Positions 17,040 to 45,726 of a DNA stretch of 64,000 bases are shown piece by piece. The translations under genes and the position numbers were made by a program. Position 1 is the stretch's first letter; each line of letters begins with the position of its first letter. Source of the DNA: Roseateles oligotrophus (lineage in GTDB: Bacteria > Pseudomonadota > Gammaproteobacteria > Burkholderiales > Burkholderiaceae_C); the NCBI RefSeq assembly GCF_014204525.1, contig NZ_JACHLP010000001.1, forward strand, positions 558,001 through 622,000, given 5' to 3'. Below the pieces are notes generated by a model. It was given only the letters and a program-made list of their open reading frames with translations, made no database searches and was not told the origin of the DNA.

Positions 17040-17162
17040 CACAAGCCTGGGAGCGCCGTAGCGAGCGGGCTCAGGCGGGTTCGAGGAGCGCAGCCGTACT
17101 CCTGTACGGCGAGCACCGCAGGGCCCGCATGGGGCCGCGCAGTAGGCGAGCACAGGTTTGTG
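17040..17162 (-). repeat. Intergenic GTAC-core hairpin element, copy C (after tRNA-Sec)
   Basis: This element of about 123 bp starts at the CCA end of the tRNA-Sec gene. Its outer arms CACAAACCTG and CAGGCTTGTG pair with one mismatch, then extend weakly. Its centre has CCGTAC-AGGA-GTACGG. The core shares blocks with copies A (30536-30647) and B (45587-45726): GAGCACCG, GCCGCGCAGTA or ACCGCGCAGTA, GGAGCGCAG and the GTAC..GTAC apex. The outer arms differ among copies. Confidence 0.7.
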
Positions 17163-17256
17163 GCGGAGGGGAATGGGAGTCGAACCCACCCAGCGACGCA
17201 TGGCGCCACCCACCGGGTTTGAAGCCCGGCCGACCCACCAGGATCGTTTCCCCTCC
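17161..17256 (-). tRNA. selC: tRNA-Sec (anticodon TCA)
   Basis: The 96-base gene folds as a selenocysteine tRNA. It has an 8-bp acceptor stem starting GGAGGGGA, the anticodon loop CTTCAAA with TCA flanked by a GCCGGG/CCCGGT stem, a long variable arm with GGCGCC, a T-arm GGGTTCGACTCCC and an encoded CCA. It reads the UGA of the formate dehydrogenase alpha gene upstream in the same block. It lies 19 bases past the selB stop and is probably processed from the same transcript. Confidence 0.96.
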
Positions 17257-17275
17257 CAAAAACACGGGGCCGCCC

Positions 17276-19264
17276 TCATGCGGGCCGGCCTTCTTCATCA
17301 CCATCATTCTCGCCGCTGAACAGCAGGCTGTCGGGTCGCAGCTTGTGGCTATCGCCCACCCGGCGGCTCAGGCCCACGCGGTCGAAATACTCCAGGATCT
17401 GGATCGCCCGCTTGCGGCCCAGGCCGCTCGCGTCGCGAAAGGCCGCCGCCTTCAATTCCTGACCCTCGGCGCCCACGGACTGGCGCGCCAAGGCCGCCAG
17501 CCGCGTCATCACCGGGGCCGCATAGTACAGGTCTTTCACCACCTGATGCAGCAGGCCGCTTTGCGCCAGGCGTGCCAGGCTGGTGCGCATCAAGGGCTCG
17601 GGCGTCTGGCAGTCGCGAGCCAGATCGCGTGCCCAGGCGCCTTCAAAGCCGGCCTTGTCCAGCCAGGGGGCGATTCTCTGCGCCACCCGCTCGTCGGCCG
17701 CATTCAGCTGCAAGCCATGCGCGGGCAGATGGGCCATGGCCCCGCGCTGCTGCAGCTTGCCTTCGGCCAGCAGGCCTTGCACGAGGGCCCGCCACAGAGG
17801 CTCGGGCAGGCGGGGCGCGGCCAGGCGGCGCCAGCGCGCCACGTCGGGGCCCAATTCATCGGGAGACTGCGCGTGATAAGCCGCCAGCACGGCCAAGGCG
17901 TGCTGGGCCAAGCTCGCGGCCGCGGCCTCGCCCAGCAGCCAGGGGCCGCCGGCCTCATCGGCCGCCGACTTGGCGCGCAAGACCGTGGCCGGCAGTTGCA
18001 GGGCCAGGTCTTGCCTGGCGGCCTCCGAGAGCCCCTGGGCCGTGGCCCAGGCGCCCCAGTTCAGGCCCAGGGTCGCTTGCGCCAGCAGCGCTTGCAATCG
18101 GTCCTTCACCAAGGGCAGTTGCAAGGCCGCCAGCTCGGCCAGGCGCTGCGGCGTACGCCGATAGCGCGCCGGCGCAGCCGGGTCCAGAACCCGGCCACCA
18201 GCCAGTGTGCGGCTGGCCGCGGCATCGCGCAGCACCACGCGGTCGCCGGCCCAGGCGGCCACGGGCTCGCGCAAGACCAGTTGCACCCAGCCCCAGGCGC
18301 CGGGCGCCAGGCTGTCTGAGGAACTGGCAGCCTCGCTGTGCAGAATAGCCACCGTACCCATCACCGTGGCCGAGCCCAGATGCACATGCACGGGCGTGCC
18401 ACTGCGCAAGGCCTTGCTCTCGGCTGGCCAGAGCCGCAGGCGCACGTCCAGGCGCTCGCTGCTCAAGGCCAGCTCGGGGGCGGCCAAGACCTGGCCGCGC
18501 GCGACATCCTGCTTGTCCAGCCCCACCAGGCCCAGGGCGCAGCGCTGGCCGGCCTGGGCTTGCTGCACCTGTTGATTCTGCGCATGCAGGCTGCGCACCC
18601 GTGCCCGCTTGGGCGCCTGGCCGGCGGCGGGCGGCAGCAGCAATAACTCATCACCCAGGCTGACCTGGCCCGCATGGATGCTGCCGGTGGCCACCGTGCC
18701 CACGCCGTCCAGGCTGAAGGCCCGGTCCACCGCCAGGCGGAAGCCCCTTCCCTCGGGCCGGGCCGCCGGGGCCAGCGCCAGCAGATGGGCGCGCAAGGCC
18801 TCCACACCCAGGCCGGCAGGGGCGGCCACCTCAAATTGGGCGGCTTGCTCAAAACCGCTGCCCGCCAACAGCTCGGCGATCTCGGCCCGCAGCGCTTGCA
18901 GGCGGGCGGCGTCGGCACGGTCGCATTTGGTGATCACCAGCGTCAGCCCGTCCAGGCCCAGCAGGGAGAGCACGGCCAGATGCTCGCGGGTCTGCGGCAT
19001 CACGCCGTCGTCGGCCGCCACCAGCAGCAAGGCATGGTCCATGCCGGTGGCGCCGGCCAGCATGGTGTGGACCAGGCGCTCGTGGCCGGGCACGTCGACA
19101 AAGCCGATGCGCCCACCCCGGCCGTCGTCCATGAAGGCATAGCCCAGCTCGATGCTGATGCCGCGCTTTTTTTCCTCGGGCAGGCGGTCGGTGTCGACAC
19201 CGGTCAGGGCGCGCACCAGGGTGGTCTTGCCATGGTCGATATGGCCGGCGGTTCCGATGATCAA
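17276..19264 (-). CDS. selB: Selenocysteine-specific elongation factor SelB
   Basis: This 662-residue translation factor has an N-terminal GTPase ([36 protein letters not shown]), two EF-Tu-like beta domains, and a C-terminal winged-helix array (from about residue 400). The last repeats contain [13 protein letters not shown] and [24 protein letters not shown]. SelB brings Sec-tRNA to the ribosome at UGA codons marked by a SECIS hairpin, which the winged helices bind. The ATG overlaps the selA stop by four bases (ATGA). Confidence 0.97.
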
Positions 19265-20682
19265 GCCAGGGCCTCCTGCAGCTGCGGCAGCTGGGCCAGC
19301 AGCTGCGCCTCCTGGCGCTCGTCCAGGCAGCGCAGGTCCAGCCAGAGCCGGTCTTGCTGCACCCGGCCCAACACCGGCAAGGGCAGGCCGCGCAAGGCCG
19401 TGGCCAGCCCATCCAGAGCCGTGCCCAGGCCTTTTTTCGCCGTGCCCGCCGGGGCAATGAGCAGGCCCGCCGAGGGCAGGGACTCCACCGGCAGCGAGCC
19501 CGAGCCGATCTGGCCCAGCATCTCGCTGGTGGCCACGGCATAGCGCGGGCTCAGGGCCTGAGCCAGCGGGGCTTGCAGGCGCGCGGCCTGGGCTTGAATA
19601 TCGGCCAGCGGCCGGGTCAGCATGCGCAGCGTGGGCAGATCGCGGGTCAGGCGCTCGGGCTGCAGATACAGGCGCAGCGTGGCCTCCAGCGCGGCCAGCG
19701 GCAGCTTGGACATGCGCAGGGCCCGCTTCATCGGGAATTTGCGTATGCGCTGAACCAAGGCCTTATCACCCACGATCAGGCCGGCTTGCGGGCCGCCCAG
19801 CAACTTGTCACCGCTGAAGGTCACGACGTCGCAGCCGGCCTTGAGCATCTCCTGCGGCAGGGGCTCGCGCGGCAGGCCCCACTGCGCCAGATCGACCAGG
19901 GAGCCGCTGCCCAGGTCCGTCACCAGGGGTAGGCCGTGGGCATGGGCGATGGGGGCCAGGCTGGCCTCGTCCACCGCCGAGCTGAAGCCCTGCACACGGT
20001 AATTGCTGGTGTGGACCTTCATCAGCATGGCGGTGTTGGGGCCGATGGCGCGCTCATAGTCGGCGGCGTGGGTACGGTTGGTCGTGCCCACCTCCACCAG
20101 ACGGGCGCCGGCGGCGGCCATCACATCGGGCATGCGGAAGGCGCCGCCTATCTCGACCAGTTCGCCGCGCGAGACGATGACCTCGCGCCCGCCGCCCAGT
20201 GCGGCGATGGACAGCAGCACGGCGGCGGCGTTGTTGTTGACCACCGTCGCGGCCTCGGCGCCGGTGATCTCGCACAGCAGGGCTTCGACCATGCTGTCGC
20301 GGTCACCACGGCCGCCGCTGCTCAGATCGAACTCGAGGTTATTCGGCGCTGCCATCATGGCCATCACATGCTGCAAGGCCTCGTCGGCCAGCAGGGCGCG
20401 GCCCAGATTGGTGTGCAAGACCGTGCCGCTGAGATTGATGACGGCCCGCATGCGCGGCGCCAGCCGGGCCTCGACCCGCTGGCGCAGCGCCGCGCACAAA
20501 GCGCCCTCCTCCAGCGCGGCCCTGGCCAGGCCGCCTTGCCGGGCCTGGGCACGCAGCTCGTCCAGCAAGGCGCGCGCCTCCTGGGTCAGCAGGCTGCGGC
20601 CATGGGCCTGACAAGGCTCGGCCAGCAGCGGGCTGTTCAGCAGGCGGTCCAGCGAGGGCAGATCCTTGGGCTGGGCCTGCAT
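19261..20682 (-). CDS. selA: L-seryl-tRNA(Sec) selenium transferase SelA
   Basis: This 473-residue PLP enzyme converts Ser-tRNA(Sec) to Sec-tRNA(Sec) using selenophosphate. The N-terminal tRNA-binding part ([11 protein letters not shown]) is followed by [34 protein letters not shown] and the PLP-lysine segment [24 protein letters not shown]-type residues ([20 protein letters not shown]) follow. The length matches E. coli SelA (463). Its start shares a base with the fdhE stop (TGATG). Selenophosphate synthase (selD) is not in the window. Confidence 0.97.
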
Positions 20683-21704
20683 CAGTGCTGCGCCTCCGAG
20701 TCACCCGGCTCGCCCGAGTCACCAAAGAGCAGCTGCAGATTGACGCCGTGGCGGATCAGGCCCGCTTCGGACACCAGCAGGTCCAGGCTTAGCGAGGCCA
20801 GATCATCGGCATGGGGCTCGACCTGCTGGTCTTTCTCCATATGCACGATCTTGAGGTAATGGCCGCAGGCTTCGCAGCACTCCACCTGCACACCGCTTGA
20901 ATGCGGCGGCATGCTGCCGTCTTCGTTCAACAGGCTCTGGAAGCTGATGCCCTGGGTGCTTTGGCAATGCGTGCATTTGACCCGCACATAGTGCCATTGG
21001 GCGGCGCAGAGACTGCAGGACAGATAGCGGAAGCCCGAACCCTCGGCGCCGATGCGGGTGATGGAGGCCACCGGGCGCGAGGCGCAGCAGGGGCAGATCA
21101 AGGGGTCGTCGATGCGGCCGAAGGGTGCAAGCAATGGGCTGTGCTGGCTGTTCTGCTCGCGTTCGAAGCGCGCCTGCAGCTGGCTCAGCAAGCGCGCCCA
21201 ATGCACTTGCAGGCCGGCTGCGATCAGGGGGGCGCTGGCCAGGTCCAGACCCGTCATCACGCCGTTCAGCAGGCGGCTGGCTTGCAGCTCCAGATACTGG
21301 TCATCGGCGTCGGCCAGTTGCAGCACCGCGGTGCGTGCCGGGCCGGCGGCGATGCGGGCTGCCAATAGCCGCATCAGCTCGCGCAGCTCCTGCAACCAGG
21401 CCGGGTCGCGGGCCCAGCTGGCCGCGGGCAAGAGGGGCAGGCCGGCCTTGGCGGCGGCCTCGATCTGGGGCTGCTCGGGCAGGCTCAGGGCCAGCGGGCG
21501 GCTGAATACCTCATGCTGGGCCTGGGCCAGCTCGGCCGCAAACAAGAGGTAGTCGCCCATGGCATGGCCCGGCGCCAGCTGGCGCAGGCGCAGGGCGCGC
21601 TCGGCAAACAGACCGGGCTGGGGCAGCAGCAGAAAGGGGATCTGCTCGCCGGCACGCACCGCGATTTCTTCGGGGGACATCAACTTGGCAGTGCTTGCAC
21701 TCAT
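20682..21704 (-). CDS. fdhE: Formate dehydrogenase accessory protein FdhE
   Basis: This 340-residue protein has a helical N-terminal half and a C-terminal rubredoxin-like half with four CxxC pairs: CPCC, CSLC, CTHC and CEACGHYLKIV. FdhE binds iron through these cysteines and is needed for activity of respiratory formate dehydrogenases. ATG 21704 is preferred over the GTG directly before it because it gives better spacing to the GGAAG ribosome site. A hairpin with a T-run (21714-21743) lies between it and the gamma subunit gene, so its expression may be lower than that of the structural genes. Confidence 0.92.
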   Translation of the reverse strand: MSASTAKLMSPEEIAVRAGEQIPFLLLPQPGLFAERALRLRQLAPGHAMGDYLLFAAELAQAQHEVFSRPLALSLPEQPQIEAAAKAGLPLLPAASWARDPAWLQELRELMRLLAARIAAGPARTAVLQLADADDQYLELQASRLLNGVMTGLDLASAPLIAAGLQVHWARLLSQLQARFEREQNSQHSPLLAPFGRIDDPLICPCCASRPVASITRIGAEGSGFRYLSCSLCAAQWHYVRVKCTHCQSTQGISFQSLLNEDGSMPPHSSGVQVECCEACGHYLKIVHMEKDQQVEPHADDLASLSLDLLVSEAGLIRHGVNLQLLFGDSGEPGDSEAQH

Positions 21705-21713
21705 CACGCTTCC

Positions 21714-21743
21714 AAAAAAGACAGGGCGGGCCCAAGCCCGCCC
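21714..21743 (-). terminator. Intrinsic terminator/attenuator between fdhI and fdhE
   Basis: GGGCGGGC pairs perfectly with GCCCGCCC across a 4-base loop (21724-21743). On the minus strand it is followed three bases later by a run of six T. It sits after the structural genes of formate dehydrogenase and before fdhE-selA-selB. It would let only part of the transcription pass. The plus strand also has a T-run, so it may act in both directions. Confidence 0.65.
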
Positions 21744-21764
21744 CTTTTTAACATGGCCGGGGGC

Positions 21765-22388
21765 TTACTTGCCCTTGCTCATTTCCTCGTACCACAGTGC
21801 ATGGTTCTGCTTGGCCCAGCCCGCGCTGACCGTGCCCCGGGTCATGGCGCGCACCGTGCCCTTGACCCAGATGGCGGCGTAGACATGCATGATGACGCCC
21901 AGAATCAAGGCCACGGCCGAGGCCGAGTGCAGCAGCACGGCGATGCGGCGCAGGGTGATGGGGAAGCTGTTCGCAAACCAGGGCTGCCAGAACATCACCC
22001 CGGTCACCAGCAACACGGCCAGGCAGATGGACATCAACCAGAACACGCCCTTCTGGCCGGCGTTGTACTTGCCCACCGGCGGCATCTTGCTCTTGTCGCC
22101 TTTCAGCATGTCCAGGCTGTGCTTCTGCCATTCCTTGTCGGCGGCGTTGAGGGTGTTCTCGCGCCAGAGCTTGAAGAACAGGCCCAGAAAGGACAGGAAC
22201 ATCGCCACGCCCAGAAAGGGGTGGAGGATGCGGGCCCAGACCCCGCCACCCAGCAGCGCGCTCAGAAAGAACAGGCTGGGGTGGAAGAAGGCCAGGCCCG
22301 AGACCCCGGCCAGGATGAAGAGCAAGGCAATCGCCCAGTGGTTCAGGCGGTCGCGGTCGGAGTAACGTTGTATGTAGCGGGTACTCAT
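21765..22388 (-). CDS. fdoI: Formate dehydrogenase gamma subunit, cytochrome b556
   Basis: This 207-residue membrane subunit has four hydrophobic helices. Histidines that can hold two b-type hemes occur in DRLNHWAIALL, RILHPFLGVAM and LLHSASAVALILGVIMHVYAA, the last typical of FdnI/FdoI. It takes electrons from the iron-sulfur subunit to quinone. RYSDRDRLNHW at the N-terminus is the family signature. The gene follows the beta subunit by 15 bases. Confidence 0.94.
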   Translation of the reverse strand: MSTRYIQRYSDRDRLNHWAIALLFILAGVSGLAFFHPSLFFLSALLGGGVWARILHPFLGVAMFLSFLGLFFKLWRENTLNAADKEWQKHSLDMLKGDKSKMPPVGKYNAGQKGVFWLMSICLAVLLVTGVMFWQPWFANSFPITLRRIAVLLHSASAVALILGVIMHVYAAIWVKGTVRAMTRGTVSAGWAKQNHALWYEEMSKGK

Positions 22389-22403
22389 GATGCTTGCCTC
22401 CTT

Positions 22404-23294
22404 TTAGACCTTGGACTTTTCGTCGCCGGCCTCGCCTTCGGCCTTCTCTTCGATCGGCCCCACCGTCATGTAATGGAAGAAGCCGGCCACCACCGCGCCC
22501 GCCATGGCGGCCACGGCCAGCGGTTTGGCCAGGCCCTTCCAGACCGAGACAAAGGGGCTGATCTTGGGGTCGGCCGGCAGGCCGTGGTAGAGCTCGGGCT
22601 TGTCGCCATGCTGGAGCACATACATCACATGGGTGCCGCCCACGCCCGCCGGGTTGTAGACCGAGGCCTGGGCAAAGCCGCGCTCCTTCAGGTCGACGAT
22701 GCGCTCGGCGCCATAGTCCAGCATGTCCTCCTTGGCGCCGAAGCGGATGGCGCCGGTGGGGCAGGCCTTGACGCAGGCCGGCTCCAGACCCACGCCGACG
22801 CGGTCGGAGCACAGCGAGCACTTATAGGCCTTGCTATCGGTCTTGGAGATGCGCGGCACATCGAAGGGGCAGCCGGTGACGCAGTTGCCACAGCCCACGC
22901 AATGCTCGGAGATGAAGTCCACAATGCCATTGGCGTATTTGACGATGGCGCCGGGGGCCGGACAGCTTTTCAGACAGCCCGGGTCCTCGCAGTGCATGCA
23001 GCCGTCCTTGCGAATCAGCCACTCCAGCCGGTCGGCCTCGACCTCCACCTCGGAGAAACGCATCACCGTCCAGGACTGGGCGGAGAGGTCGCGCGGGTTG
23101 TCGTAGGTGCCGACGTTGTCGCCCACCTCATCGCGCAGATCGTTCCACTGCATGCAGGCCACCTGACAGGCCTTGCAGCCTATGCAGGCGGAGACGTCGA
23201 TGAGTTTGGCGACCTCGATGGTCTTACGCGCCTGCGGGCTGGGCGTGGTGGTGGCCGAGCGCTTGGCGATGTCTAAAGATTGAAGTGAAGACAT
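22404..23294 (-). CDS. fdoH: Formate dehydrogenase beta subunit, iron-sulfur protein
   Basis: This 296-residue protein carries four [4Fe-4S] cysteine clusters: [37 protein letters not shown] and [21 protein letters not shown]. One C-terminal transmembrane helix (about 253-275, [19 protein letters not shown]) anchors it to the membrane, as in FdnH/FdoH. It relays electrons from the molybdopterin subunit to cytochrome b. It starts 2 bases after the alpha subunit stop codon. Confidence 0.96.
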
Positions 23295-23296
23295 GG

Positions 23297-26200
23297 TCAG
23301 GCTTTCTCGATATTGACGGTGAAGCTCTTGAACTCCGGCGTCTGGGTATTGGCGTCACCCACAAAAGGCGTCAGCGTGTTCACCAGATAGCCGGGCTTGG
23401 CCACACCCACAAAGCCCCAGTGATTGGGCAGACCCACCGTGTGCACCTTCTGCCCCGCCACCTCCAGCATGGGGATGCGCTTGCTCACCACCGCCTTGGC
23501 CTTGATGAAGCCGCGGTTGCTGCTGACCTTGACCCAGGCCCCGTTTTCAATGCCCTTCTCCTTGGCCAGTTGCTCGCCGATCTCGACGAATTGCTGGGGC
23601 TGGATCACGGCATTGCTTTCGCAGTTCTTGGTCCAGTAGTGGAAGTGCTCGGTCAGGCGGTAGCTGGTCGCCACATAGGGGAAGTCCGCGGGCTTGCCAA
23701 AGGCCTCCAGATCGCCCTTGAAGACCCGGGCGGCCGGATTGGCCCGCGCCTTGTCGTTCTTGGGGTGCATGGGGTTGTTGGGCAGGGGCGACTCGAAGGG
23801 CTCGTAATGCTCGGGCAGCGGGCCGTCGACCAGGCCGCTGGGCGCGAACAAGCGGGCCACACCCTCGGCCGTCATGATGAAGGGCCGCACGGCGTTCTCG
23901 TCGTTAGGGTTGGCGTCGGGCCGGATGTCCGGCACGTCCGAACCCGCCCAGCGCTCGCCATTCCAGGCCACCAGCTTGCGATGGGGGTTCCAGGGCTTGC
24001 CGCTGGGGTCGCAGGAGGCCGTGTTGTACAGCACCCGGCGGTTGGCCGGCCAGGCCCAGGCCCAGTTCAGCGTCTGGCCGATGCCGTAAGGATCGCTGTT
24101 ATCGCGCCGCGCCATCTGGTTGCCGGCCTGGCTCCAGCTGCCGGCAAAGATCCAGCAGCCGCTGGCGGTGGAGCCATCGTCGCGCAAGAGGCCGAAGCCG
24201 GACAGCTGCTCGCCCGCCTTGGCCAAGACCTTGCTCGGATCCTTGGGGTCGAGCACGTCGGCCAGCGCCCGTCCATTGGCCTCCTTGGCCAATTCCTCGG
24301 CCGAGGGGTTGTGCGGGATCAGATAGGGCCAGGTCAGATTGAGCATGGCGTCAGGGAAGGCGCCGCCGTCCTTCTGATAGGCCTTCTTCATGCGCAGGAA
24401 CAGCTCGGCGATGATTTCCGGATCGCCCCTGGCCTCGCCCGGAGGCTCGGCGCCCTTCCAGTGCCACTGCAGCCAGCGGCCGGAGTTGGTGATGGAGCCG
24501 TCCTCCTCGGCAAAGCAGGTGCTGGGGAAGCGGAACACCGTGGTCTGGATCTCCTCGCTCTTGACCTCGTTGTGCTCGCCGTAGTTCTTCCAGAACTCCG
24601 AGGTCTCGGTCACCAGCGGGTCGATGACGACCAGGTATTTGAGCTTGGACAGGCCGGCGACGATCTTCTTCTTGTTGGGGAAGGAGGCGACCGGGTTGAA
24701 GCCCTGGCAGATATAGCCGTTGAGCTTGCCCTGGCCCATCATCTCGAAGGCCTGCAGCACATCGTAGGCCTTGTCCCATTTGGGCAGGTAGTGGTAGGCC
24801 CAGTCGTTCTCGGCCGTGGCCGCCTTGCCCCACCAGCTCTTCTGCAGGCTGACGAAGAACTTGGGGTAGTTCTGCCAGAAGCTCATCTGCCCGGGGCGCA
24901 GGGGCTTGAGCGCGCGCGGCTTGTAATAGCTGGCCAGGTCCTGCTCGCTCTCACGCGGCAGGCTCATATAGCCCGGCAGCGAGGTCGAGAGCAGGCCCAG
25001 GTCCGTCAGGCCCTGGATATTGGAGTGGCCACGCAAGGCATTCATGCCGCCGCCGGCCAGGCCCATATTGCCCAGCAGCAGCTGCATGATGGCGCCGGTG
25101 CGGATGATTTGCGAACCCTGGCTGTGCTGAGTCCAGCCCAGGGCGTACAGAATCGTCATCGCCTTGGCCGGCTTGGCGGTCTCGGCAATCATCTCGCAGC
25201 ACTTGAGGAATTTGTCCTTGGGCGTGCCGGTGATATTGCTGACCACCTCGGGCGTGTAGCGCGAGTAATGCTGCTTCATCACATTGATGACGCAGCGCGG
25301 ATGGGCCAGGGTCTCATCGACCTTGGCATACCCATCCTCGCCCAGCTCGTAAGCCCAGCTCGAGTTGTCGTACTTGCGCTTGCTTTCGTCGTAACCAGAG
25401 AACAGCCCATCCTCGAAGCCGAAGGCCTCGCCCACGATGAAGCTGGCATTGGTGTACTTGAGGACGTACTCCTGCTGGATCTTGTTGTTAGACAAGAGGT
25501 AGTGGATGACGCCGCCCAGGAAGGCGATGTCCGAGCCGGCCCGGATGGGGGCGTAGTAATCGCTCATCGCAGCGGAGCGCGTGAAGCGCGGATCCACCAC
25601 CAGCAGCTTGGCCTTGTTCTTGTGCTTGGCCTCGACCACCCACTTGAATCCGACCGGATGCGCCTCGGCGGCATTGCCGCCCATGATCAGCACCAGGTCC
25701 GCGTTCTTGATGTCCACCCAATGGTTGGTCATCGCACCGCGCCCAAACGTCGGGGCCAGACTGGCCACCGTCGGGGCGTGTCAAACGCGCGCCTGGTTGT
25801 CGAATACCAGCATCCCCATCGAACGCATCGCCTTGTGGGTGATGTAGCCCGATTCATTGGAGGATGCCGAGGCACAGAGCATGCCCGTCGTGAGCCAGCG
25901 GTTGACGGTCTTGCCGTCGGCGTTCTGCGCCTGGAAATTGGCGTCGCGGTCGGCCTTCATCAGGCCGACCAGACGGTCCATGGCCTCGTCCCAGCCGACG
26001 CGCTTCCACTCCTTGCTGCCGGGCTCGCGGATCTCGGGCCACTTCAGGCGGTTCTTGCTGTGCACAAAGTCCAGCAGGCCGGCGCCCTTGGGGCAGAGGC
26101 TGCCGCGGTTGACCGGGTGATCGGGGTCACCCTCGATGTGCATGATGTCGCTGACGACGTTCTTGGCCTTGTCGCCCATGCTGTACATCAGGATGCCACA

Positions 26201-27434: not shown

Positions 27435-27462
27435 GACAGGCGCCGGCCCTGGATGGGCGCGC

Positions 27463-30535: not shown

Positions 30536-30647
30536 GAGCGGCTAACAAAACTCAGCGCAGCGGTCCTGGCTAGGCGCGCCGTCGAAGACAGTACACCGGG
30601 TACGGCGAGACGGCGTAACAACGCCAGGAGAGTTTTGTTGGCCGCTC
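30536..30647 (-). repeat. Intergenic GTAC-core hairpin element, copy A (after kinase gene)
   Basis: The 112-bp element begins at the first base after the TAA stop of the kinase gene. Outer arms of 18 bases, GAGCGGCCAACAAAACTC and its inverse GAGTTTTGTTAGCCGCTC, pair with one mismatch. Inside lie TCCTGGC/GCCAGGA, GCCGTC/GACGGC and an apex GTAC-CCGGT-GTAC. The core shares AGCGGTC, GGCTAGGCG and GTAC..GTACG with copy B (45587-45726) and the apex with copy C (17040-17162). Confidence 0.75.
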
Positions 30648-33101
30648 TTAGCTGGACTGCTTGAAGGCCATCACTGCCTGGTTGCGCAGGGTGCGCAACA
30701 GGGACAGCTCTTTCTCGCCCAGATCGATCTCGCCGGCCAGGGGCTTGTCGGCATAGATCAGGGCGAAGGGCTGGCCCTTCAAAGCCATGGGCAGCAGCAA
30801 AAAGCTCTGGGCAGCGAGCGCGCCCTGGTACCAGGCGGGCAGGCGCTCGGCGATCTTGTCGGCACCGGCATCGCTGATCAAGGTGTCGGCCCCGCGCTGG
30901 CACACGGCCTCGAAGAGATTGGCCTGCGCGCCGGGCGGCGTGCGCAGGGCGATGCGGAAGGCCGGCACCACGCTCTCCACCTCGGCCCCCAGGCCGAAAC
31001 GGCCGGTCAGGGTCTCGGTCCTGGGGTCGCGCAGGCAGAAGATCACCCGGCGGAAGCCCAGCGCCCGGTAAATGGTCTCCAGAATCATGCGCAGGACTTC
31101 GTTGAGCTTGAAGTTCTCCACCATCACATTGGTGATGTCCTGAATGCCGGCGGCCAGGGTTTCGACCGCCAGTTCGCGGTTCAGGCGCTGGCTGCTGCCG
31201 GGCTCGTCGGGCGTCAGCACCTGGGTGGCTTGCAGTTGCAGGGCCGTCAGGGAGTCATCCGGCGTCGGGGTCAGCGGCGCCAGCAGGCGCAGGGCCGGGG
31301 AATTCTTGGGCAGGACCAGCCCCAAGGCCTCGGTCATCTGGGCCAGGCGCTGGCGGGCCTGGTCGGCGGCCAGGTCGAAGGCCTCGGCCGTTAGCCCCAA
31401 GCTGCGCGCATAGCGCTGGGCCATGGCATGCACCCTGGCATGGGCCTGGGCCGGCTCGGTGCGCAGAATCACATCGGCCACATCATTGGCCGCATGGGCC
31501 AGCCAGCGCTGGCGCTCGCCGGGGTGCTGGACCAGGCGGTGCGGCGGCTCGCCCTCGGGCCGCTGCATGCTGGCCTGCAAGGTCTCGGGCAAGCCCCATT
31601 GCCGGGCCACGCCCAGGCCCAGCTGCTCATAACTCATGCCCAGCACCCGCGCCGAGGCCACCCACTCGGGGATGGGCGCGGGCGCGGGCTTGCCGGCCAG
31701 GCTGAGGCGCTCGACCCGGGTCATGCGGCGGATCTGGCCGGCCTCCTCGGGGAAGTAGAACTCGGTCAGCGCACGCCCCAGGTTATGGAACATGGCGCAG
31801 AGAAAGGCCTCCTCGTTCTCGCGCGGGCTCAGGCAAAGCTCGCGCGCCAGCGAGGCCGCCATCAGCGAGCGCAGAAACTCCTCGCGCAGCTGCTGGGCAT
31901 GGGCCTTGTTCTCCATGCGCTCCAGCAGGATCAGCGAGAGCGCCAGATTGCGGATGCCGGCAAAGCCCACCAGGGCCACGGCGCGCGAGATGGTGGTGAT
32001 GCCGCCGCCACCGCCGCCCTGCCGGTACTGCACCGTGTTGACCAGGCGCAGCAGCTTTTGCGTCAGGGCCACGTCCTTGAGGATTTCATTCGACAGGCTG
32101 GCCAGGCTTTCGCTCTCCGACAGGGTCAGGCGCTGGATGCGGCTGACCGCATCCGACATGGCCGGGAAGTCGCTCTTGTGCTGCATGCGGCGCAGCAGAA
32201 AGTCCAGGGCCGCGCCCTCGCCCGTCGCGCCCAGGGGCTCGGTCTGGGGCGGTTGCAGCCACTCGGCCAGGGCATCGTGCATGGCCAGGGCGCTGGGCCA
32301 GCGCTGGGCCGGTTCGCGCGCCAGCCCGCGCTGGGCGATGGCGCGCAAGGCATCGTCCACATCGGCGGCCAGGCCGCGCGGCACCTGCAGCTCCTGCTCG
32401 ATGACGCGCTGCACGGCACGCCAGGGATCGGGCTCGTAATTGAGGCGCTGGCCGCTGAGCATCTCGACCAGCACGACGGCGGCGGCAAACACATCCATCT
32501 GCGCGCTGGGGGGCTGGCCCTGCGCCGCCTCGGGCGAGAGATAGCCGGGCGTGCCGACGATGCGCTCCGGCTGGCTGCCGCTGCTTGGCTTGTTGGCGCC
32601 GTCCAGGCGGGCAGCGATGCCGAAGTCCATCACCCGCGCCCGCCCCTTGGCGTCGATCAGGATATTGCTGGGCTTGAGGTCGCGGTGCACGACGCCGGCC
32701 GCATGGGCGGCCTGCAAGCCGTCCAGCACATCCATGCAGAGCTCGACGGCGGCGCGGGCCGGCAGCTGGCGTTCGCGCCTCAGCTTCTCCACCAGGGTGC
32801 CGCCGGGCACGTACTCGAAGACCATATAGAACTGGCCATCCTGCGTATCGGCCTCGAACACCGGCACGATGAAGGGATGGGTCAGGCGGCTGACGGCGCG
32901 CGCCTCATGCAGCCATTCATCCACCCGGCTGGGCTCGGCGCCGGGGCGCAAGACCTTGAGGGCGACGTCGCGGTCCAGCCGCGGGTCATGAGCCAGCCAG
33001 ACGGTGGCTTGCGCGCCCTCGCCCAGGCGCTTGAGCAGGCGAAAACGCCCCAGCTGCGGCAAGGCCAGCGCGCTCAGGGCCGGACGTTCATCCTCTTGCA
33101 T
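30648..33101 (-). CDS. Serine/threonine kinase-HDOD-GAF signalling protein
   Basis: This 817-residue protein has three parts. The protein kinase (about 18-275) is intact: G-loop LGEGAQATVW, Lys49 in VALK, Glu66, HRD 139-141 with Asn146, DFG 159-161 and GTPGYLSPE. Next is an HDOD domain (about 305-510; LTLSESESLASLSNEILKD, LVGFAGIRNLALSLILLERM and FLCAMFHNLGRALTEFYFP). The C-terminus is a GAF-like domain (about 650-810; VMVENFKLNEVLRMILETI, DLGEKELSLLRTLRNQAVMA). HDOD domains relate to signalling proteins but lack HD catalytic residues. It follows the pseudokinase-HDOD gene by 51 bases, so both are probably co-transcribed and may act together. Confidence 0.88.
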   Translation of the reverse strand: MQEDERPALSALALPQLGRFRLLKRLGEGAQATVWLAHDPRLDRDVALKVLRPGAEPSRVDEWLHEARAVSRLTHPFIVPVFEADTQDGQFYMVFEYVPGGTLVEKLRRERQLPARAAVELCMDVLDGLQAAHAAGVVHRDLKPSNILIDAKGRARVMDFGIAARLDGANKPSSGSQPERIVGTPGYLSPEAAQGQPPSAQMDVFAAAVVLVEMLSGQRLNYEPDPWRAVQRVIEQELQVPRGLAADVDDALRAIAQRGLAREPAQRWPSALAMHDALAEWLQPPQTEPLGATGEGAALDFLLRRMQHKSDFPAMSDAVSRIQRLTLSESESLASLSNEILKDVALTQKLLRLVNTVQYRQGGGGGGITTISRAVALVGFAGIRNLALSLILLERMENKAHAQQLREEFLRSLMAASLARELCLSPRENEEAFLCAMFHNLGRALTEFYFPEEAGQIRRMTRVERLSLAGKPAPAPIPEWVASARVLGMSYEQLGLGVARQWGLPETLQASMQRPEGEPPHRLVQHPGERQRWLAHAANDVADVILRTEPAQAHARVHAMAQRYARSLGLTAEAFDLAADQARQRLAQMTEALGLVLPKNSPALRLLAPLTPTPDDSLTALQLQATQVLTPDEPGSSQRLNRELAVETLAAGIQDITNVMVENFKLNEVLRMILETIYRALGFRRVIFCLRDPRTETLTGRFGLGAEVESVVPAFRIALRTPPGAQANLFEAVCQRGADTLISDAGADKIAERLPAWYQGALAAQSFLLLPMALKGQPFALIYADKPLAGEIDLGEKELSLLRTLRNQAVMAFKQSS

Positions 33102-37373: not shown

Positions 37374-37392
37374 GCTGAAGTGACTCTCTCCG

Positions 37393-37418: not shown

Positions 37419-37429
37419 GGCCGGTGTGA

Positions 37430-37700
37430 CACTGACAGCGCTGATCATTGGCTGCGTCACCCTCTGCCAAGGCCCAGCCGGGAGTTCGCCCCGGCAGGCG
37501 ACCTCCTTTCTTGGGCGCCCAAGAAAGGAGGCAAAGAAACCGCCCCGAATGCCTGGCCCCTTCGGGGTCCGCTGCGGCACTCGCCTTTGCCGGGCCGCGC
37601 CCAACTCACTGCGCTACGCTCCGTTCAAACAAGGGGCGCGAGTCAGTTGTTGATGGCGCTGCGCGCCGCCCGCCAAAGTCAAGCACCGCAGCCCAGGCAA
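37430..37700. repeat. Repeat-like intergenic region with 30-bp perfect palindrome
   Basis: The 345 bases between the actP terminator and the exonuclease stop hold no convincing gene. At 37502-37531 is a perfect 30-bp palindrome: arms CCTCCTTTCTTGGGC and GCCCAAGAAAGGAGG, no loop. It is followed by GCAAAGAAACCGCC and further short inverted repeats (CCCCTTCGGGG). This AAGAAAGGAGGCAAAGAAA type of sequence is, to my knowledge, a dispersed intergenic repeat in many beta- and gammaproteobacteria. There it often gives rise to spurious short gene calls with FLGRPRKE-type translations. Confidence 0.55.
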
Positions 37701-37763
37701 CACGGGGAACCCGAAAACCACACGGCTCGCTGCGCGTCGCCTGGGTCGAATACCAAGCCCGAT

Positions 37764-38396
37764 TCAATCCGCCAGCAAACTGCGCAGCTTCAAAAACGCC
37801 AGCGCCGCCATGACGGCATCGTTCAGCGCATTGTGGGCGGGGCGCTGGGGCAGGCCCAGGTCCTGCATCAGCGTGTCCAGGCGCAGATCGATCGCAGCGC
37901 CCTGTTGATAGGGCGGCAGCTGGCGCTGCTTCCAGTCGTAGTACAGGGACGAGATCTCGATCTTGGGCTGGGGCAGGCGCAGGCCCAGCATCGGAAAGAT
38001 GGCCCGGTTGATCAGGGCCACATCGAATTCGAGGTAATAGCCCACCAGGGGGCGCGGGCCGATGAAGTGCAGCAGCCGGCGCATGGCCGTGTCGATGTCC
38101 AGGCCCTGAGCCAGGTCCTGCTCGCGCAGGCCGTGGATCTTGACGGCAGCGGCCGTGAGGTTCTTCTTCTCGGGCTTGACCAGCAGCTCCAGGCGCTGGC
38201 TGCTCAGCACCCGATTGCCCTGGATGCGCACGGCGCCGATGGCGATGATCTCGTCGCGCTGCGCGTCCAGGCCCGTGGTCTCGCAGTCCAGCGAGACCCA
38301 TTCATCCGCCGGCGTCGGCCCGAACATGGGGGCGAACTCGGGCAGGCCCAGGTGGTAGAGCAGCCAGCGCTGCTTCAATGCCGCCCACACACTCAT
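37764..38396 (-). CDS. DnaQ-like 3'-5' exonuclease
   Basis: This 210-residue DEDDh exonuclease has DCETTGLD (Exo I), GYYLEFDVALINRA (Exo II) and HNALNDAVMAALAFL (Exo III with the catalytic histidine). A 30-residue leader with ALKQRWLLYHLGLPEF precedes the domain. It resembles the epsilon proofreading family but is not fused to a polymerase. Its ATG overlaps the DUF294-protein stop by four bases (ATGA). This pair next to actP is common, which suggests a link to acetate metabolism or signalling, but no mechanism is known to me. Confidence 0.9.
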   Translation of the reverse strand: MSVWAALKQRWLLYHLGLPEFAPMFGPTPADEWVSLDCETTGLDAQRDEIIAIGAVRIQGNRVLSSQRLELLVKPEKKNLTAAAVKIHGLREQDLAQGLDIDTAMRRLLHFIGPRPLVGYYLEFDVALINRAIFPMLGLRLPQPKIEISSLYYDWKQRQLPPYQQGAAIDLRLDTLMQDLGLPQRPAHNALNDAVMAALAFLKLRSLLAD

Positions 38397-40237: not shown

Positions 40238-40297
40238 GGTGGGCGGCGAAGTCTGGGGCCGATCTGAGCACGCCTGGCTGACACCAGGCTTTTTCTC

Positions 40298-43200
40298 TCA
40301 GCTACTCAGACTCGCCCAAACCTTCTCCAGCCGCTTGACGCTGACCGGCTGGGGCGTGCGCAGCTCCTGGGCGAAGAGGCTGACGCGCAACTCCTCCAGC
40401 TGCCAGCGGAAGTCCACCAGGCGGCCATCCACCCTGCCCTTCAACTCGATGACGCGGCGCAGATAGCGCTGCTCCAGCGGGCGCAGCTCGGCCAGCAGCT
40501 TGGCGTCGCGGGCCGGGTCGGCGCGCAGCTTGTCCAGCCGCGCCGTGATGGCCTTCAGGTAACGCGGCAGATGCTGGAGCTGGGCCCAGGGCGTGGCGCT
40601 GACGAAGTTCTTGGGCAGCAAGCGCTGCAATTGGGCCGTGATGTCCTCGGCCACCTCCTTGGCGGCGCGGGCGTCCTTGAGCTTGCGCGTGGCCGCCGTG
40701 TAGTCTTGCAAGACCACGCCGGTCTGGCGCGCCACTTCCTGGGCGATCAGGTTCAGGCGCGAGCGCCCTTCTTCCAAGCGCGCCTTGAACTCGAACTCGT
40801 TTTTGGGCAGGGGCTCGGCCAGGAAGGCGCGCTCCAGGGCCAGGCCGATGATCTGCTCGCGCAATTCCTCGGCCGTGCCCAGGCTCATGTACAGCACCGA
40901 CATCTTTTGCAGATCGGGGATGTTTTTTTCCAGGAACTTGAGCGGTTCCTTGAGCTGCAAGGCCAGCAAGCGGCGCAGGCCCAGCAGATGCTTGGCCGCC
41001 GCGATTTCGGGCTCGTCAAAGACCTCGATCTCCACATGCGTGCCCCGATCTATCAGGGCCGGGAAGCCGACCAAGGCCTGGGCGCCGCGCTTGACCTCCA
41101 TCAGCTCAGGTAACTCGCCAAAGCTCCAGGCCGTGTAGGTCTTGCTGGCCTCCTGGGCCGGCTTGGGCGCTGGCGCCACCTCGGCCCGGATGCCGCCCTT
41201 GGCGACAGGCGGCAGCGGCGCGGGTGCAGCCGCGGCCGGCAGCTTGAGCGCCGCCAGGGCCTGGAAGGCCGAGCGCGCCTGGCCGCCCAGCTCGGCCTTC
41301 AAGGCCGCCAGATTGCGGCCCTGGCCCAGTTGGCGGCCATGCTCGTCCACCACGCGGAAGTTCATGAATAGATGGGGCTGCAATTGCTCCAGCTTGAAGT
41401 CATTGCGCTGCACGGCGATCTGGCTGCGCTCCTTGACCGCCTTCAGCAAGACCTCGACCAAAGTACCTTGGGCAAAAGCATGGGTGGCGACGAACTCGGC
41501 GATGAAATCCGGCAACGGCACCAGGCGTGAGCGCGGGCGCTGGTGCAAGCTCTTCAGCAAGGCCATCAGCTTGGCCTCCAGCATGCCGGGCACCAGCCAT
41601 TCGGCGCGCTCCTCGCTGACCTGGTTGAGGGCATAGATGGGCACGGTGACGGTGACGCCATCCCGCGCATCGCCGGGCTGGTGCAGGTACTCGGTCGCGC
41701 AATCCACCCCGCCCAGGCGCAAGATCTTGGGAAAGGCGCTGCTGGTGACGCCGGCGGCCTCGTGGCGCATCAGCTCGTCCTGGCTGAGGTGCAGCAGCTT
41801 GGGTTCTAACTTGGATGCTTGGCGGTACCAGCGCTCCAACGTCGCGCCCGAGCACACCTCGGCCGGCAACTGGCTGTCGTAATAGGCGTAGATCAGCTCA
41901 TCATCGACCAGCACGTCCTGGCGGCGCGATTTGTGCTCCAGCTCCTCGACCTTGCGGATCTGGCGTGTGTTGTGGGCCAGGAAAGGCAGGCGGCTGTCCC
42001 ACTCGCCGTTGACCAGGGCCTCGCGGATGAAAATCTCACGCGCGGCCCGGGCATCCACATTGCCGAAGTTCACCCGGCGGTTGTTGTAGATGACGATGCC
42101 GTACAGCGTCGCCCGCTCCAACGCGATCACCTCGGCCGCCTTCTTCTCCCAATGCGGCTCCAGCAGCTGGGTCTTGATCAGATGGCCGGCGATGCCGGGC
42201 AGCCACTGAGGCTCGATGTTAGCGATGCCACGGCCGAACAAGCGGGTGGTGTCCACCAGCTCGGCGGCCACGATCCAGCGGCCCGGCTTCTTGCTCAGGT
42301 GGGCGCCGGGGTGGCGCCAGAACTTGATGCCGCGCGCCCCCAGATACCAGTCGTCCTCATCGCTCTTGCAGCCCAGATTGCCCAGCAAGCCGGCCAGCAT
42401 GCTGAGGTGCAATTGCTCGTAGATGGCGGGGCTGCCGTTGATGCGCCAGCCCTGCTCGGCCACCACGGTGTGCAGCTGGGAGTAGATGTCCTTCCACTCG
42501 CGCACGCGGCGCGGGCTGATGAAGTTTTCGCGCAGCAAGGCCTCATACCGTCTATTTGACAGCTTATGTTCGCCGTGCCCGCCCTTGGCTTCTTCTATCC
42601 ACTTCCACAGCTTCAAGTAGCCCATGAACTCCGACTTCTCGTCGTCGAACTTCTTGTGCCGCTCGTCCGCCGCCTGTTGCTGCTCCATGGGCCGGTCGCG
42701 CACATCCTGGCCGCTGAGGGCGCTGGCGATGATGAGCACCTCGCTCAAGGCTTCGCGCGAGCGGGCTTCCAGAATCATCCGGCCCACGCGCGGGTCCAGG
42801 GGCAGGCGCGACAGCTCCTTGCCCAGCGGGGTCAACTCGTTCAAGTCGTCCACCGCGCCCAGTTCCTGCAGCAGCTGATAGCCATCGGCAATCGCCTTGC
42901 GCGGCGGCGCCTCGATGAAGGGGAAGCTGTCCACCTGGCCCAGGCCCAGGGACTTCATGCGCAGAATCACGCCGGCCAGGGACGAACGCAGGATTTCGGG
43001 GTCGGTGAAGCGCGGCCGGGCGAGATAGTCCTTTTCGTCGTAAAGCCGTATGCAGATGCCGTTACTTACCCGACCGCAGCGGCCGGCGCGCTGGTTGGCC
43101 GAGCTTTGGCTGACCGGCTCGATCTGCAGCTGCTCGACCTTGTTGCGGTAGCTGTAACGCTTGACCCGGGCGGTGCCGGGGTCGATGACGTAACGGATGC

Positions 43201-44173
43201 CCGGGACGGTCAGCGAGGTTTCGGCCACATTGGTGGCCAAGACGATGCGGCGCTGGCCATGGGGCTCGAAGACGCGATCCTGCTCCTGCTGGGACAGGCG
43301 GGCGAACAGGGGCAGCACGTCCACACCGGGCGGGTGGTGCTTGCGCAAGGCCTCGGCCGCCTCACGGATCTCGCGCTCGCCGGGCAGGAAGACCAAGACA
43401 TCGCCGCCGCCCTCGCGCCACAACTCATCGACGGCGTCGGTGATGGCGTTGTTGAGGTCGTACTCGCGTGACTCCTCAAACGGACGGTAGCGCTGTTCCA
43501 CCGGGAAGGTGCGGCCCGAGACCATCAGCACCGGCGCCGGACCTTTGCTGGACTCGAAATGCTTGGCAAAGCGCTCGGCATCGATGGTGGCCGAGGTGAC
43601 GATCAGCTTCAGGTCGGGCCGGCGCGGCAGCAACTCACGCAGATAGCCCAAGAGGAAGTCGATGTTCAGCGAACGCTCATGGGCCTCGTCGATGATCAGC
43701 GTGTCGTAGGCGCGCAGCAGCGGGTCGGTCTGAGTTTCGGCCAGCAAGATGCCGTCCGTCATCAGCTTGACGCTGGCGCCCGGCTGCAAGCGGTCCTGGA
43801 AGCGCACCTTGTAGCCGACGATCTCACCCAGCGGCGTCTTCAACTCCTCGGCAATGCGCTTGGCCACGCTGCTGGCGGCGATGCGGCGCGGCTGGGTGTG
43901 GCCGATCAGCTTGCCGGTATTGGCGCGGCCGCGGCCCAGGGCCAGGGCGATCTTGGGCAGCTGGGTGGTCTTGCCCGAGCCGGTCTCGCCGCAGACGATG
44001 ATGACCTGGTGCTCGGCCAGCGCCCGCGCGATGTCCTCGCGCCGGCTGGAGACCGGCAGCAATTCGGGGAAGGTGATGGGGGGCAGCGGGTTGGCGCTCT
44101 GGATCCGGGCATCTTGCTGGGGCCTGGGTCGGCGCGCTGCGGGCGGCTTGGGAGTGGGGGTCTGATCGTTCAC
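40298..44173 (-). CDS. hrpA: ATP-dependent RNA helicase HrpA
   Basis: This 1291-residue protein, close to the 1300 of E. coli HrpA, has Walker A GETGSGKTTQ (about 62-71), DEAH box IIDEAHERS, SATIDAERF, the motif QRAGRCGRVSNG, then OB-fold and the long DUF3418 C-terminal domain (with RGAQALVGFPALIDRG and ALEQRYLRRV-type residues). The start is GTG 44173, because the frame continues upstream only into unrelated sequence. The leader to argA on the other strand is only 72 bp. HrpA resolves stalled or colliding ribosomes and cuts fimbrial mRNA in E. coli. Confidence 0.93.
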   Translation of the reverse strand: MNDQTPTPKPPAARRPRPQQDARIQSANPLPPITFPELLPVSSRREDIARALAEHQVIIVCGETGSGKTTQLPKIALALGRGRANTGKLIGHTQPRRIAASSVAKRIAEELKTPLGEIVGYKVRFQDRLQPGASVKLMTDGILLAETQTDPLLRAYDTLIIDEAHERSLNIDFLLGYLRELLPRRPDLKLIVTSATIDAERFAKHFESSKGPAPVLMVSGRTFPVEQRYRPFEESREYDLNNAITDAVDELWREGGGDVLVFLPGEREIREAAEALRKHHPPGVDVLPLFARLSQQEQDRVFEPHGQRRIVLATNVAETSLTVPGIRYVIDPGTARVKRYSYRNKVEQLQIEPVSQSSANQRAGRCGRVSNGICIRLYDEKDYLARPRFTDPEILRSSLAGVILRMKSLGLGQVDSFPFIEAPPRKAIADGYQLLQELGAVDDLNELTPLGKELSRLPLDPRVGRMILEARSREALSEVLIIASALSGQDVRDRPMEQQQAADERHKKFDDEKSEFMGYLKLWKWIEEAKGGHGEHKLSNRRYEALLRENFISPRRVREWKDIYSQLHTVVAEQGWRINGSPAIYEQLHLSMLAGLLGNLGCKSDEDDWYLGARGIKFWRHPGAHLSKKPGRWIVAAELVDTTRLFGRGIANIEPQWLPGIAGHLIKTQLLEPHWEKKAAEVIALERATLYGIVIYNNRRVNFGNVDARAAREIFIREALVNGEWDSRLPFLAHNTRQIRKVEELEHKSRRQDVLVDDELIYAYYDSQLPAEVCSGATLERWYRQASKLEPKLLHLSQDELMRHEAAGVTSSAFPKILRLGGVDCATEYLHQPGDARDGVTVTVPIYALNQVSEERAEWLVPGMLEAKLMALLKSLHQRPRSRLVPLPDFIAEFVATHAFAQGTLVEVLLKAVKERSQIAVQRNDFKLEQLQPHLFMNFRVVDEHGRQLGQGRNLAALKAELGGQARSAFQALAALKLPAAAAPAPLPPVAKGGIRAEVAPAPKPAQEASKTYTAWSFGELPELMEVKRGAQALVGFPALIDRGTHVEIEVFDEPEIAAAKHLLGLRRLLALQLKEPLKFLEKNIPDLQKMSVLYMSLGTAEELREQIIGLALERAFLAEPLPKNEFEFKARLEEGRSRLNLIAQEVARQTGVVLQDYTAATRKLKDARAAKEVAEDITAQLQRLLPKNFVSATPWAQLQHLPRYLKAITARLDKLRADPARDAKLLAELRPLEQRYLRRVIELKGRVDGRLVDFRWQLEELRVSLFAQELRTPQPVSVKRLEKVWASLSS

Positions 44174-44245
44174 GAGGCGCGGATTATCCGTGCTCCGCAG
44201 ACGAAAGCTGAAGGAAGCACCGAATCCCTGCGGCACAATCCCGGC

Positions 44246-45586
44246 ATGAGCCTGGTTTTCCCCCACACCTTCGTCCCCTGGTTTCGCGCCGTCGCCCCCT
44301 ATATCCACGCCTACCGAGGTGAGACCTTTGTGGTCGGCATGACCGGTGAGCTGGTGGCGGCGGGCAAACTCAATGCCTTCGTCCAAGACCTCGCCATCCT
44401 GCATGCCATGGGCATCAAGATCGTGCTGGTCCATGGTTTCCGCCCCCAGGTGAACGAGCAATTGGTGGCCAAGGGACACCCGGCCCGCTACAGCCAGGGC
44501 ATGCGCATCACCGATGCCGTGACCCTGGACTGCGCGCAAGAGGCCGCCGGCCAGCTGCGCTTCGAGATCGAGGCCGCCTTCTCCCAAGGCCTGCCCAACA
44601 CCCCCATGGCCAATGCCGCAGTGCGGGTGGTGTCAGGTAACTTCCTGACCGCGCGGCCCGTGGGCATCGTCGACGGCGTGGACTTCCAGCACAGCGGCGT
44701 GGTGCGCAAGGTCGACGCCACGGCCATCCAGAAGGCGATCGACATCGGCGCCATCGTGCTGCTGTCGCCCTTTGGCTTCTCGCCCACCGGCGAGGCCTTC
44801 AATCTGAGCATGGAAGACGTGGCCACCAGCACCGCCATCGCCCTGCAGGCCGACAAGCTCTTGTTCGTCTGCGAGGTGGCGGGCGTGCCCGAGAACCCCA
44901 AGGACCCGAACAGCCCCATCGACACCGAGCTGGCCGTCATCGACGCCCAGCGCCTGCTGGCCGCTAGCCCCAAGCCCACCTCGCCGCTGGACGTAGGCTT
45001 TTATCTGCAGCACTGCGTGCGCGCCTGTCTGGGTGGGGTGGAGCGCTCCCACATCCTGCCGCTGGCGGTGGACGGCGCCTTGCTGCAAGAGGTCTACACC
45101 CACGACGGCATCGGCACCATGGTGGTGGACGAGAAGCTGGAAAGCCTGCGCGAGGCCAGCTCGGACGATGTGGCCGGCATCATCAATCTGATCGAGCCCT
45201 TCGAGCGCGACGGCACCCTGGTCAAGCGCGACCGCACCGAGATCGAACGCGATGTCGAGCTCTACACCGTCATCGAGCATGACGGCGTGATCTTCGGCTG
45301 CGCCGCCCTCTACCCCTATGTCGAGGCCAAGACGGCCGAGATGGCGGCGCTGACCATCTCGCCCGCCGTGCAAGGCCAGGGTGACGGCGACCGCATCCTG
45401 AAGCGGGTGGAGCAGCGCGCCAAGGCCCAGGGCCTGGCCAGCATCTTTGTGCTAACCACCCGCACCATGCACTGGTTCATCAAGCGCGGTTTTGTGCAGG
45501 TGGACCCGGAATGGCTGCCCGAAGAGCGCAAGCGCAAATACAACTGGGACCGCCGCTCCCAGGTGCTGGTCAAGAAGCTCGCCTGA
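44246..45586 (+). CDS. argA: Amino-acid N-acetyltransferase ArgA
   Basis: This 446-residue enzyme has an N-terminal amino acid kinase-like domain (about 1-290; LVHGFRPQVNEQL, VVSGNFLTARPVG, LLSPFGFSPTGEAFNLSMED), which senses arginine and is not catalytic. The C-terminal GNAT domain (about 300-446; MAALTISPAVQGQGDGDRIL) makes N-acetylglutamate from acetyl-CoA, the first step of arginine synthesis. Length and order match the E. coli type (443). ATG 44246 is the start, divergent from hrpA. Copy B of the hairpin element begins at the base after its stop. Confidence 0.95.
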   Translation: MSLVFPHTFVPWFRAVAPYIHAYRGETFVVGMTGELVAAGKLNAFVQDLAILHAMGIKIVLVHGFRPQVNEQLVAKGHPARYSQGMRITDAVTLDCAQEAAGQLRFEIEAAFSQGLPNTPMANAAVRVVSGNFLTARPVGIVDGVDFQHSGVVRKVDATAIQKAIDIGAIVLLSPFGFSPTGEAFNLSMEDVATSTAIALQADKLLFVCEVAGVPENPKDPNSPIDTELAVIDAQRLLAASPKPTSPLDVGFYLQHCVRACLGGVERSHILPLAVDGALLQEVYTHDGIGTMVVDEKLESLREASSDDVAGIINLIEPFERDGTLVKRDRTEIERDVELYTVIEHDGVIFGCAALYPYVEAKTAEMAALTISPAVQGQGDGDRILKRVEQRAKAQGLASIFVLTTRTMHWFIKRGFVQVDPEWLPEERKRKYNWDRRSQVLVKKLA

Positions 45587-45726
45587 GAGGGTGAGAACTT
45601 TTTACTGCGCGGTCGCCATGCGTCGTTGGACGGTGCTCGGAATCCTCACGTACAGGGAGTACGTTCCGGTTCCTGCGCTCCGTCCGCCTAGCCTGACGAC
45701 CGCTCGCGACAAAAGTTCTCACCCTC
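45587..45726 (+). repeat. Intergenic GTAC-core hairpin element, copy B (after argA)
   Basis: The 140-bp element starts at the base after the argA TGA. Outer arms GAGGGTGAGAACTTTT and AAAAGTTCTCACCCTC are a perfect 16-bp inverted pair. The apex ACGTAC-AGGGA-GTACGT is perfect, flanked by CGGAA/TTCCG, with partial pairing GGTCG..GGACGG/CCGTCC..CGACC. On the minus strand it shares AGCGGTC and GGCTAGGCG with copy A and GAGCACCG, GCATGG and CCGCGCAGTA with copy C. The outer arms share nothing with the other copies. Confidence 0.75.

Follow-up and report, generated by a model that had tools for sequence, protein, structure and literature searches.

Why should hairpins with a partly shared core and unrelated outer arms begin exactly where genes end? 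The question is raised by a stretch of 64,000 nucleotides from Roseateles oligotrophus (hereafter the window), in which three intergenic hairpins (copies 1, 2, and 3, in order of position) adjoin a tRNA-Sec gene and two protein genes. The sequence-only reading of this stretch had seen in them either a mobile element that takes its arm from the insertion site or 3′-end structures evolved for processing. We regard them as non-autonomous palindromic transposons, probably moved in trans by a transposase and either targeted to stop codons or kept there.

Hairpin families and their filled and empty sites

With copy 3 as query, a family A is found at 23 places in the genome (24 forward rows); one copy is in two pieces, one is cut by a contig end, and 22 have both ends. 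The remaining rows are reverse matches to these places, as the palindrome also aligns in that direction. Copies in one piece with both ends are 90–99% identical to copy 3, and the arms, at unrelated genes, are GAGGGTGAGAAC or close variants. The 23 rows obtained with copy 2 correspond to 12 elements of family B (some as two rows) with GAGCGGCTAACAAAAC as arms, to 3 fragments (L034, L035, and L038, excluded from the B counts), and to 5 places of a family D. Copy 1 (family C) has one DNA match in its own genome, and C-like copies occur at other places in relatives. Further copies of A and B are thus present well beyond the window.

Twenty-nine sites of this genome, with their flanks, were compared to 400 kb of the closest relative, and five of them fall inside that 400 kb. 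Of these, the C site is filled in the relative, and the other four (three of A, one of B) are empty. At the one clean A site, that of a copy other than copy 3, the relative has AATCTGACACC where R. oligotrophus has AATCTGA[element]TGACACG, that is, a 3-bp duplication of TGA; the other empty A and B sites in G004 are too diverged to demonstrate a duplication. In Escherichia coli, two empty forms of the ycbX-rlmL interval were fetched, and the difference is a 141-bp element with TCTTA on each side (a duplication of about 5 bp, one further base being assignable to either side); at least 80% of this 551-bp stretch is present in 4,151 of 5,426 genomes. At ucpA-cysP, for which at least 80% of the query occurs in 1,377 of the 5,426 genomes, the empty form has TCTTA and the filled form TCTTG on the left and TCTTA on the right. 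The arm of B occurs at 66 places in the Xanthomonas hortorum genome of L293; of the 20 stretches retrieved from these, two are one-armed. In 10 of the other 18, the two flanking triplets are identical (shuffle mean 4.5, p 0.001), either TAA/TAA or TTA/TTA and never crossed. Filled and empty sites thus show insertion with a short target duplication and, together with the many copies, bear out the mobile element of the sequence-only reading. A further form at ucpA-cysP (L158, 418 bp) is 13 bp longer than the empty one and retains a remnant like a right arm, possibly left by an imprecise loss of the element.

The same sites bear on the origin of the arms. Had each insertion copied its outer arm from the gene end, the arm would begin at the stop codon, as it does in many copies; the stop lies inside the paired arm in some taxa (e.g., L291), and three E. 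coli sites carry different outer arms. However, the arms of A and B are common to unrelated genes, and the empty sites examined are without arm sequence, the four A and B sites of the closest relative showing no trace of it. Such capture is very improbable, and this part of the first proposal falls: the arms act like a terminal inverted repeat proper to each family. Across sister species, A arms vary widely with complementarity mostly kept. In Xanthomonas, B arms carry a core of the A kind, so that arms and core act as separate modules. Family D (L040, L041, L042, and L043 around 1480–1585; L247, L251, L257, and L263; four of the five own places fetched) has a B-like core between arms AGGACTTACGCAAAAC or similar, and there too arms and core look like exchangeable modules.

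That the hairpins are ordinary intrinsic terminators, alike by chance, is scarcely credible. They are G+C-rich and lie behind genes, but the A copies in one piece with both ends are 90–99% identical to copy 3, and the closest relative lacks the element at all four A and B sites that could be compared. An intrinsic terminator is a hairpin followed by a T run, which copies 2 and 3 lack beyond their sense 3′ ends.

In the window itself, all three hairpins are present at the places first given for them (Table 1) and fold far better than shuffled sequences (z of −5.2, −5.9, and −7.7; 0 of 200 shuffles as good). The stop coordinates place the arms of copies 2 and 3 exactly at the first base after the stop, as had been read, and copy 1 does stand at the CCA end of tRNA-Sec, where its arm overlaps the final two bases. 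The outer arms of the three are indeed mutually unrelated. The shared core is evident between copies 1 and 3 and loose for copy 2, which has the GTAC-loop-GTAC apex and the GGCTAGGCG block in common with the others and no full-length alignment with either.

Table 1. Hairpins of the window and the features adjoining them (positions in the 64-kb window)
Feature	Position	Strand	Remarks
Copy 1, family C	17040–17162	−	Hairpin at CCA end of tRNA-Sec
tRNA-Sec	17161–17256	−	TCA anticodon
Copy 2, family B element	30536–30647	−	112 bp; arms GAGCGGC(T/C)AACAAAAC; sense strand is minus
TAA stop	30648–30650	−	At 5′ junction of copy 2
Gene ending at copy 2	30648–33101	−	817 aa; protein kinase, HDOD, GAF (Pfam domains)
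Gene upstream of copy 3	43559–45586	+	675 aa; AA_kinase and GNAT acetyltransferase (Pfam domains)
TGA stop of that gene	45584–45586	+	Left copy of 3-bp target
Copy 3, family A element	45587–45726	+	140-bp palindrome; arms GAGGGTGAGAAC / GTTCTCACCCTC
Part of copy 3 matching Rfam sX9 (RF02228)	45648–45724	+	41.2 bits, below gathering score 44
TGA at far side of copy 3	45727–45729	+	Read as right copy of 3-bp target

Copy 1 is present in the relative G004 and absent behind tRNA-Sec in G008, G010, and G015. Its apex (window 17092–17112) differs from that of the G004 orthologue (L409) by a block of changes with pairing kept, as if the tip of the hairpin had been replaced as a unit. The window also contains a SECIS_3 element (84.6 bits; 25728–25786, minus strand) which, with tRNA-Sec nearby, marks a selenoprotein locus.

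Stop codons at the 5′ junction

How general is the position at the stop? Copies were scored for the stop of a coding-like frame overlapping the 5′ junction, the ends of each element being defined by a profile. A sense-gene stop is at the junction in 19 of the 23 own A copies (or of 22, if the contig-end copy is left aside) and in 46 of 56 from sister species (60 fetched as the best rows of a longer list, 4 dropped by score). For B, the counts are 10 of 12 in the own genome (9 of 12 with a 100-codon limit) and 7 of 15 in relatives (22 fetched, 7 dropped by score). Antisense stops at the opposite junction are rare: 0/23 and 3/56 for own and sister A, 1/12 and 0/15 for own and relatives' B. As a control, 3.7–5.4% of 1342 noncoding TGA triplets pass the same test. 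Of the tolerated TGA sites in 400 kb of a relative, 14.6% are stops, and of the tolerated TAA sites, 19.5%; the corresponding values for the window are 20.7% and 16.7%. Were all tolerated TGA and TAA equally used, about 15%–20% of copies would be expected at stops (binomial p of 1e-13 for own A, 3e-29 for sister A, and 4e-6 for own B). The rule read from two hairpins is thus real and wider than the window.

The stops used differ between the families, with TGA in 18 and TAA in one of the own A copies and TAA in all 10 of the B copies, and orientation is almost fixed in this genus. The stop precedes the junction by 7 to 20 nt in six A copies. Five A and two B copies have a frame that enters the element and stops inside its arm. 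By eye, the C-termini at the stops are mostly natural-looking.

A wider sample was drawn with the exact core pattern, taking one genome per species. It holds at least 117 stretches, of which 80 are among the matches listed, and the counts and taxa that follow are those of the listed matches. They come from Xanthomonas, Acidovorax, Herbaspirillum, Curvibacter, Dyella, Rhodanobacter, Thiobacillus, Methylocaldum, Pseudomonas, and others. Boundaries obtained by folding 95 nt around the core were over-extended, and arm extension, used in their place, bounded 79 of 82 places, roughly for part of the copies. In 32 of these 79, the end of a sense gene lies no farther than 8 nt from the 5′ arm, and in 44 it lies at most 30 nt before the arm; for antisense gene ends and the 3′ arm, the numbers are 7 and 13 of 79 (p 7e-5 for sense vs. 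antisense within 8 nt). This shows the stop-codon rule, in a weaker form, across Burkholderiales, Xanthomonadales, and other taxa. In X. hortorum, stops are found at both element ends, with no clear orientation.

The rule could also arise after insertion. Elements would enter many T-N-A sites in either direction, and the sense copies behind stops would be kept since the hairpin acts there as a 3′-end protector, a terminator, or a processing site. Such selective retention is possible, although we do not favor it. The hairpins are very stable, and the changes on both sides of the copy 1 apex, relative to G004, keep pairing. In other bacteria, repetitive extragenic palindromes (REPs) are likewise found for the most part downstream of genes and are believed to act as RNA elements (PMC3733652). 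Retention would fit less well with the age of the copies, stops being found in 9 of the 10 A copies that are closest to the consensus and in 9 of the 11 other aligned ones, or with the missing T run behind the A and B copies of the window.

Substitutions point the same way. Pair counting on 73 distinct A sequences (with the fold of copy 3, the RNAalifold consensus being poor) shows that arm pairs have often changed on both sides. With two fixed U-G pairs set aside, there are 141 A-C cells against 59 G-U cells, whereas selection on the sense RNA would be expected to leave an excess of G-U; the count gives no support for such selection, nor for the 3′-end processing structures first proposed.

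The RNA side is not empty, since the 3′ half of family A matches a family filed by Rfam as a small RNA (sRNA) of Xanthomonas, sX9 (RF02228). In Xanthomonas, sX9 is reported to be upregulated by copper stress (PMC10924375), which would suit retention. Eight own A copies score above 44 bits (38 places listed in the own genome); copy 1 reaches 18.7 bits and copy 2 is not among the listed matches. The model comprises 76 positions, about half of an element, and is filed as an sRNA, whereas the matching sequence here belongs to a palindrome that moves and duplicates its target. In one published list, sX9 is among the 20 most prevalent bacterial sRNAs (PMC9029176). In 185 genomes drawn from the class, three are over the cut-off, the own genome included, so that sX9 as modelled is patchy.

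Possible mobilising machinery and known systems

How would such elements move? They are about 110–150 bp long and similar to miniature inverted-repeat transposable elements (MITEs), and would form one wide superfamily that includes the sequence filed as sX9. Each subfamily has its own arms, which change and stay complementary, and a DDE-type transposase encoded elsewhere would act on them in trans. The T-N-A duplication and the GAG ends hint at a transposase of the IS5 kind. Insertion occurs into a short target, which becomes duplicated: TGA at an A site, TAA or TTA for the Xanthomonas elements with the arms of B, and TCTTA at an E. coli site. In this genus, the target is mostly a stop codon, with the element in the sense direction. 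Either insertion is aimed at gene ends or insertions at gene ends survive. The arm starts at the stop codon because the stop codon is the target, and duplication of the target leaves the gene with its stop; a few copies instead supply the stop from the element's own end. The hairpin would then join the 3′ untranslated region of the gene. Aiming may be active, each subfamily taking its own stop in the sense direction (TGA for A, TAA for B), perhaps by way of the transcript or of the ribosome-free gene end; this stronger version is tentative, and we know of no transposon with a target choice guided by the transcript or the gene end.

Several points weigh against this account. One A copy (L013) has TAA on the left and TGA on the right, and G004 has TAA there; a simple duplication does not predict such unequal ends without later change, and flanking triplets are unequal in several other copies. 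Since A always faces the same way relative to TGA, its sense orientation and the strand of the TGA amount to a single fact, and count as one line of support and not two. A plain T-N-A target does not explain why A is on TGA and B on TAA, with one exception. The stops of L025 and L036 rest on possibly spurious frames. Orientation is not fixed in X. hortorum, Klebsiella, Yersinia, or the ycbX-rlmL copy of E. coli. Finally, no autonomous element with these ends is found with two patterns in the own genome, or with one pattern, among the matches listed, in four Xanthomonas genomes; the own-genome scans with the two patterns, for the ends of A and of B, return the elements and a few single matches.

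Some of these points would suit mobility in single-stranded form, by an HUH/Y1 tyrosine transposase that cuts 3′ of CTGA, as for the insertion sequences (ISs) IS200/IS605 or for REPs and their associated transposases (RAYTs). A cut in one strand 3′ of CTGA would fix the orientation relative to TGA, and the right-hand TGA would belong to the element. In this genus, orientation is almost fixed and both ends carry TGA or TAA according to subfamily, which agrees with such a cut, as does copy L013 (CTAA left, TGA right), and Y1_Tnp matches occur in all 18 genus genomes searched. But A, B, C, and D elements are near none of the 30 Y1 loci examined (within 1.7–3.3 kb around each; further Y1 matches exist), and mobilisation by Y1 or RAYT proteins was dropped for want of a link at these loci. 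The duplications of TAA and TTA in the Xanthomonas elements with the arms of B, and of about 5 bp in E. coli, also speak against this mode, which we consider unlikely. The only Y1 transposase match of the own genome (L204, 1397–2234) is flanked by inverted repeats of the AATGGGGTCAGAGTG type, unrelated to the elements and similar to the GGGGWSAS kind described for TIRYTs (PMC3733652).

Other sequences were met in the course of the search. Two identical GCGCGGCAAACAAAA matches lie near contig ends (G000:C2:678318-678332 and G000:C9:184754-184768); they may come from a repeat that the assembly has lost or from an element broken by contig ends. One B element (L008) is split at 688–1500 by about 800 bp of inserted sequence, apparently rich in inverted repeats, and no transposase was recognised by eye in the open frames of the insert. 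In X. hortorum, two long inverted pairs (1.6–1.7 kb) were tried as a candidate autonomous element and are ordinary ISs (IS5-type in L388, IS110-type in L389). Each of these ISs interrupts one copy of a nested, roughly 445-bp palindrome of that genome (L390, L391, L392, and L393), whose ends are those of family B.

How do the elements compare with known systems? Correia/NEMIS, ERIC/IRU, RUP, and YPAL are characterized as short palindromic non-autonomous MITEs with terminal inverted repeats and target duplications, mostly intergenic (PMC2229807). The A and B elements are likewise short, non-coding, and multi-copy, with terminal inverted repeats and target duplication at filled sites. Most of those MITEs have 5′-TA ends, whereas the elements here have GAG...CTC ends in this genus and are mostly on a stop codon; the TA termini and TA target of ERIC/IRU are replaced by TGA or TAA at A and B ends and TCTTA in E. 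coli. REPs are alike as palindromes found mainly downstream of genes and often supply a TAG stop (PMC3733652). They differ in length (20–40 bp vs. 112–140 bp) and in having mostly a GTAG or CGTC tag in place of GAG...CTC ends. REPs of the GTAG type are often linked to RAYT genes, whereas none of the 30 Y1_Tnp loci examined has an A–D element nearby. A resemblance to integron attC sites (R′/R″ boxes, recombined by IntI) is putative. The GAG ends and the 3-bp T-N-A duplication may resemble those of some IS5 subgroups; an IS5-family relative would have a transposase gene between the same ends, and none was found with the two patterns in the own genome or, among the matches listed, with the one pattern in four Xanthomonas genomes. 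We describe A and B as a variant of the MITE kind, part of which is already filed as sX9 in Rfam.

Gene ends as a possible place to spread

The sequence-only reading knew of no family with such a rule, which stands in part: one portion of the element is sX9. By title and abstract, among the open-licence papers listed, neither a mobile palindrome on stop codons with duplication of the stop nor a stop-codon rule for sX9-like repeats is described.

If the proposed origin is correct, sX9, an often-annotated sRNA family, would find its place inside a mobile element, which would explain its high copy number, and the elements would be a natural example of protein-sparing insertion at stop codons. Should the aiming be active, they would spread through gene ends without breaking proteins, each time adding a new hairpin to a 3′ untranslated region, and the transposase would serve as a tool to append sequence to the ends of genes. 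The finding makes it testable how palindromic repeats come to sit behind genes in many bacteria.

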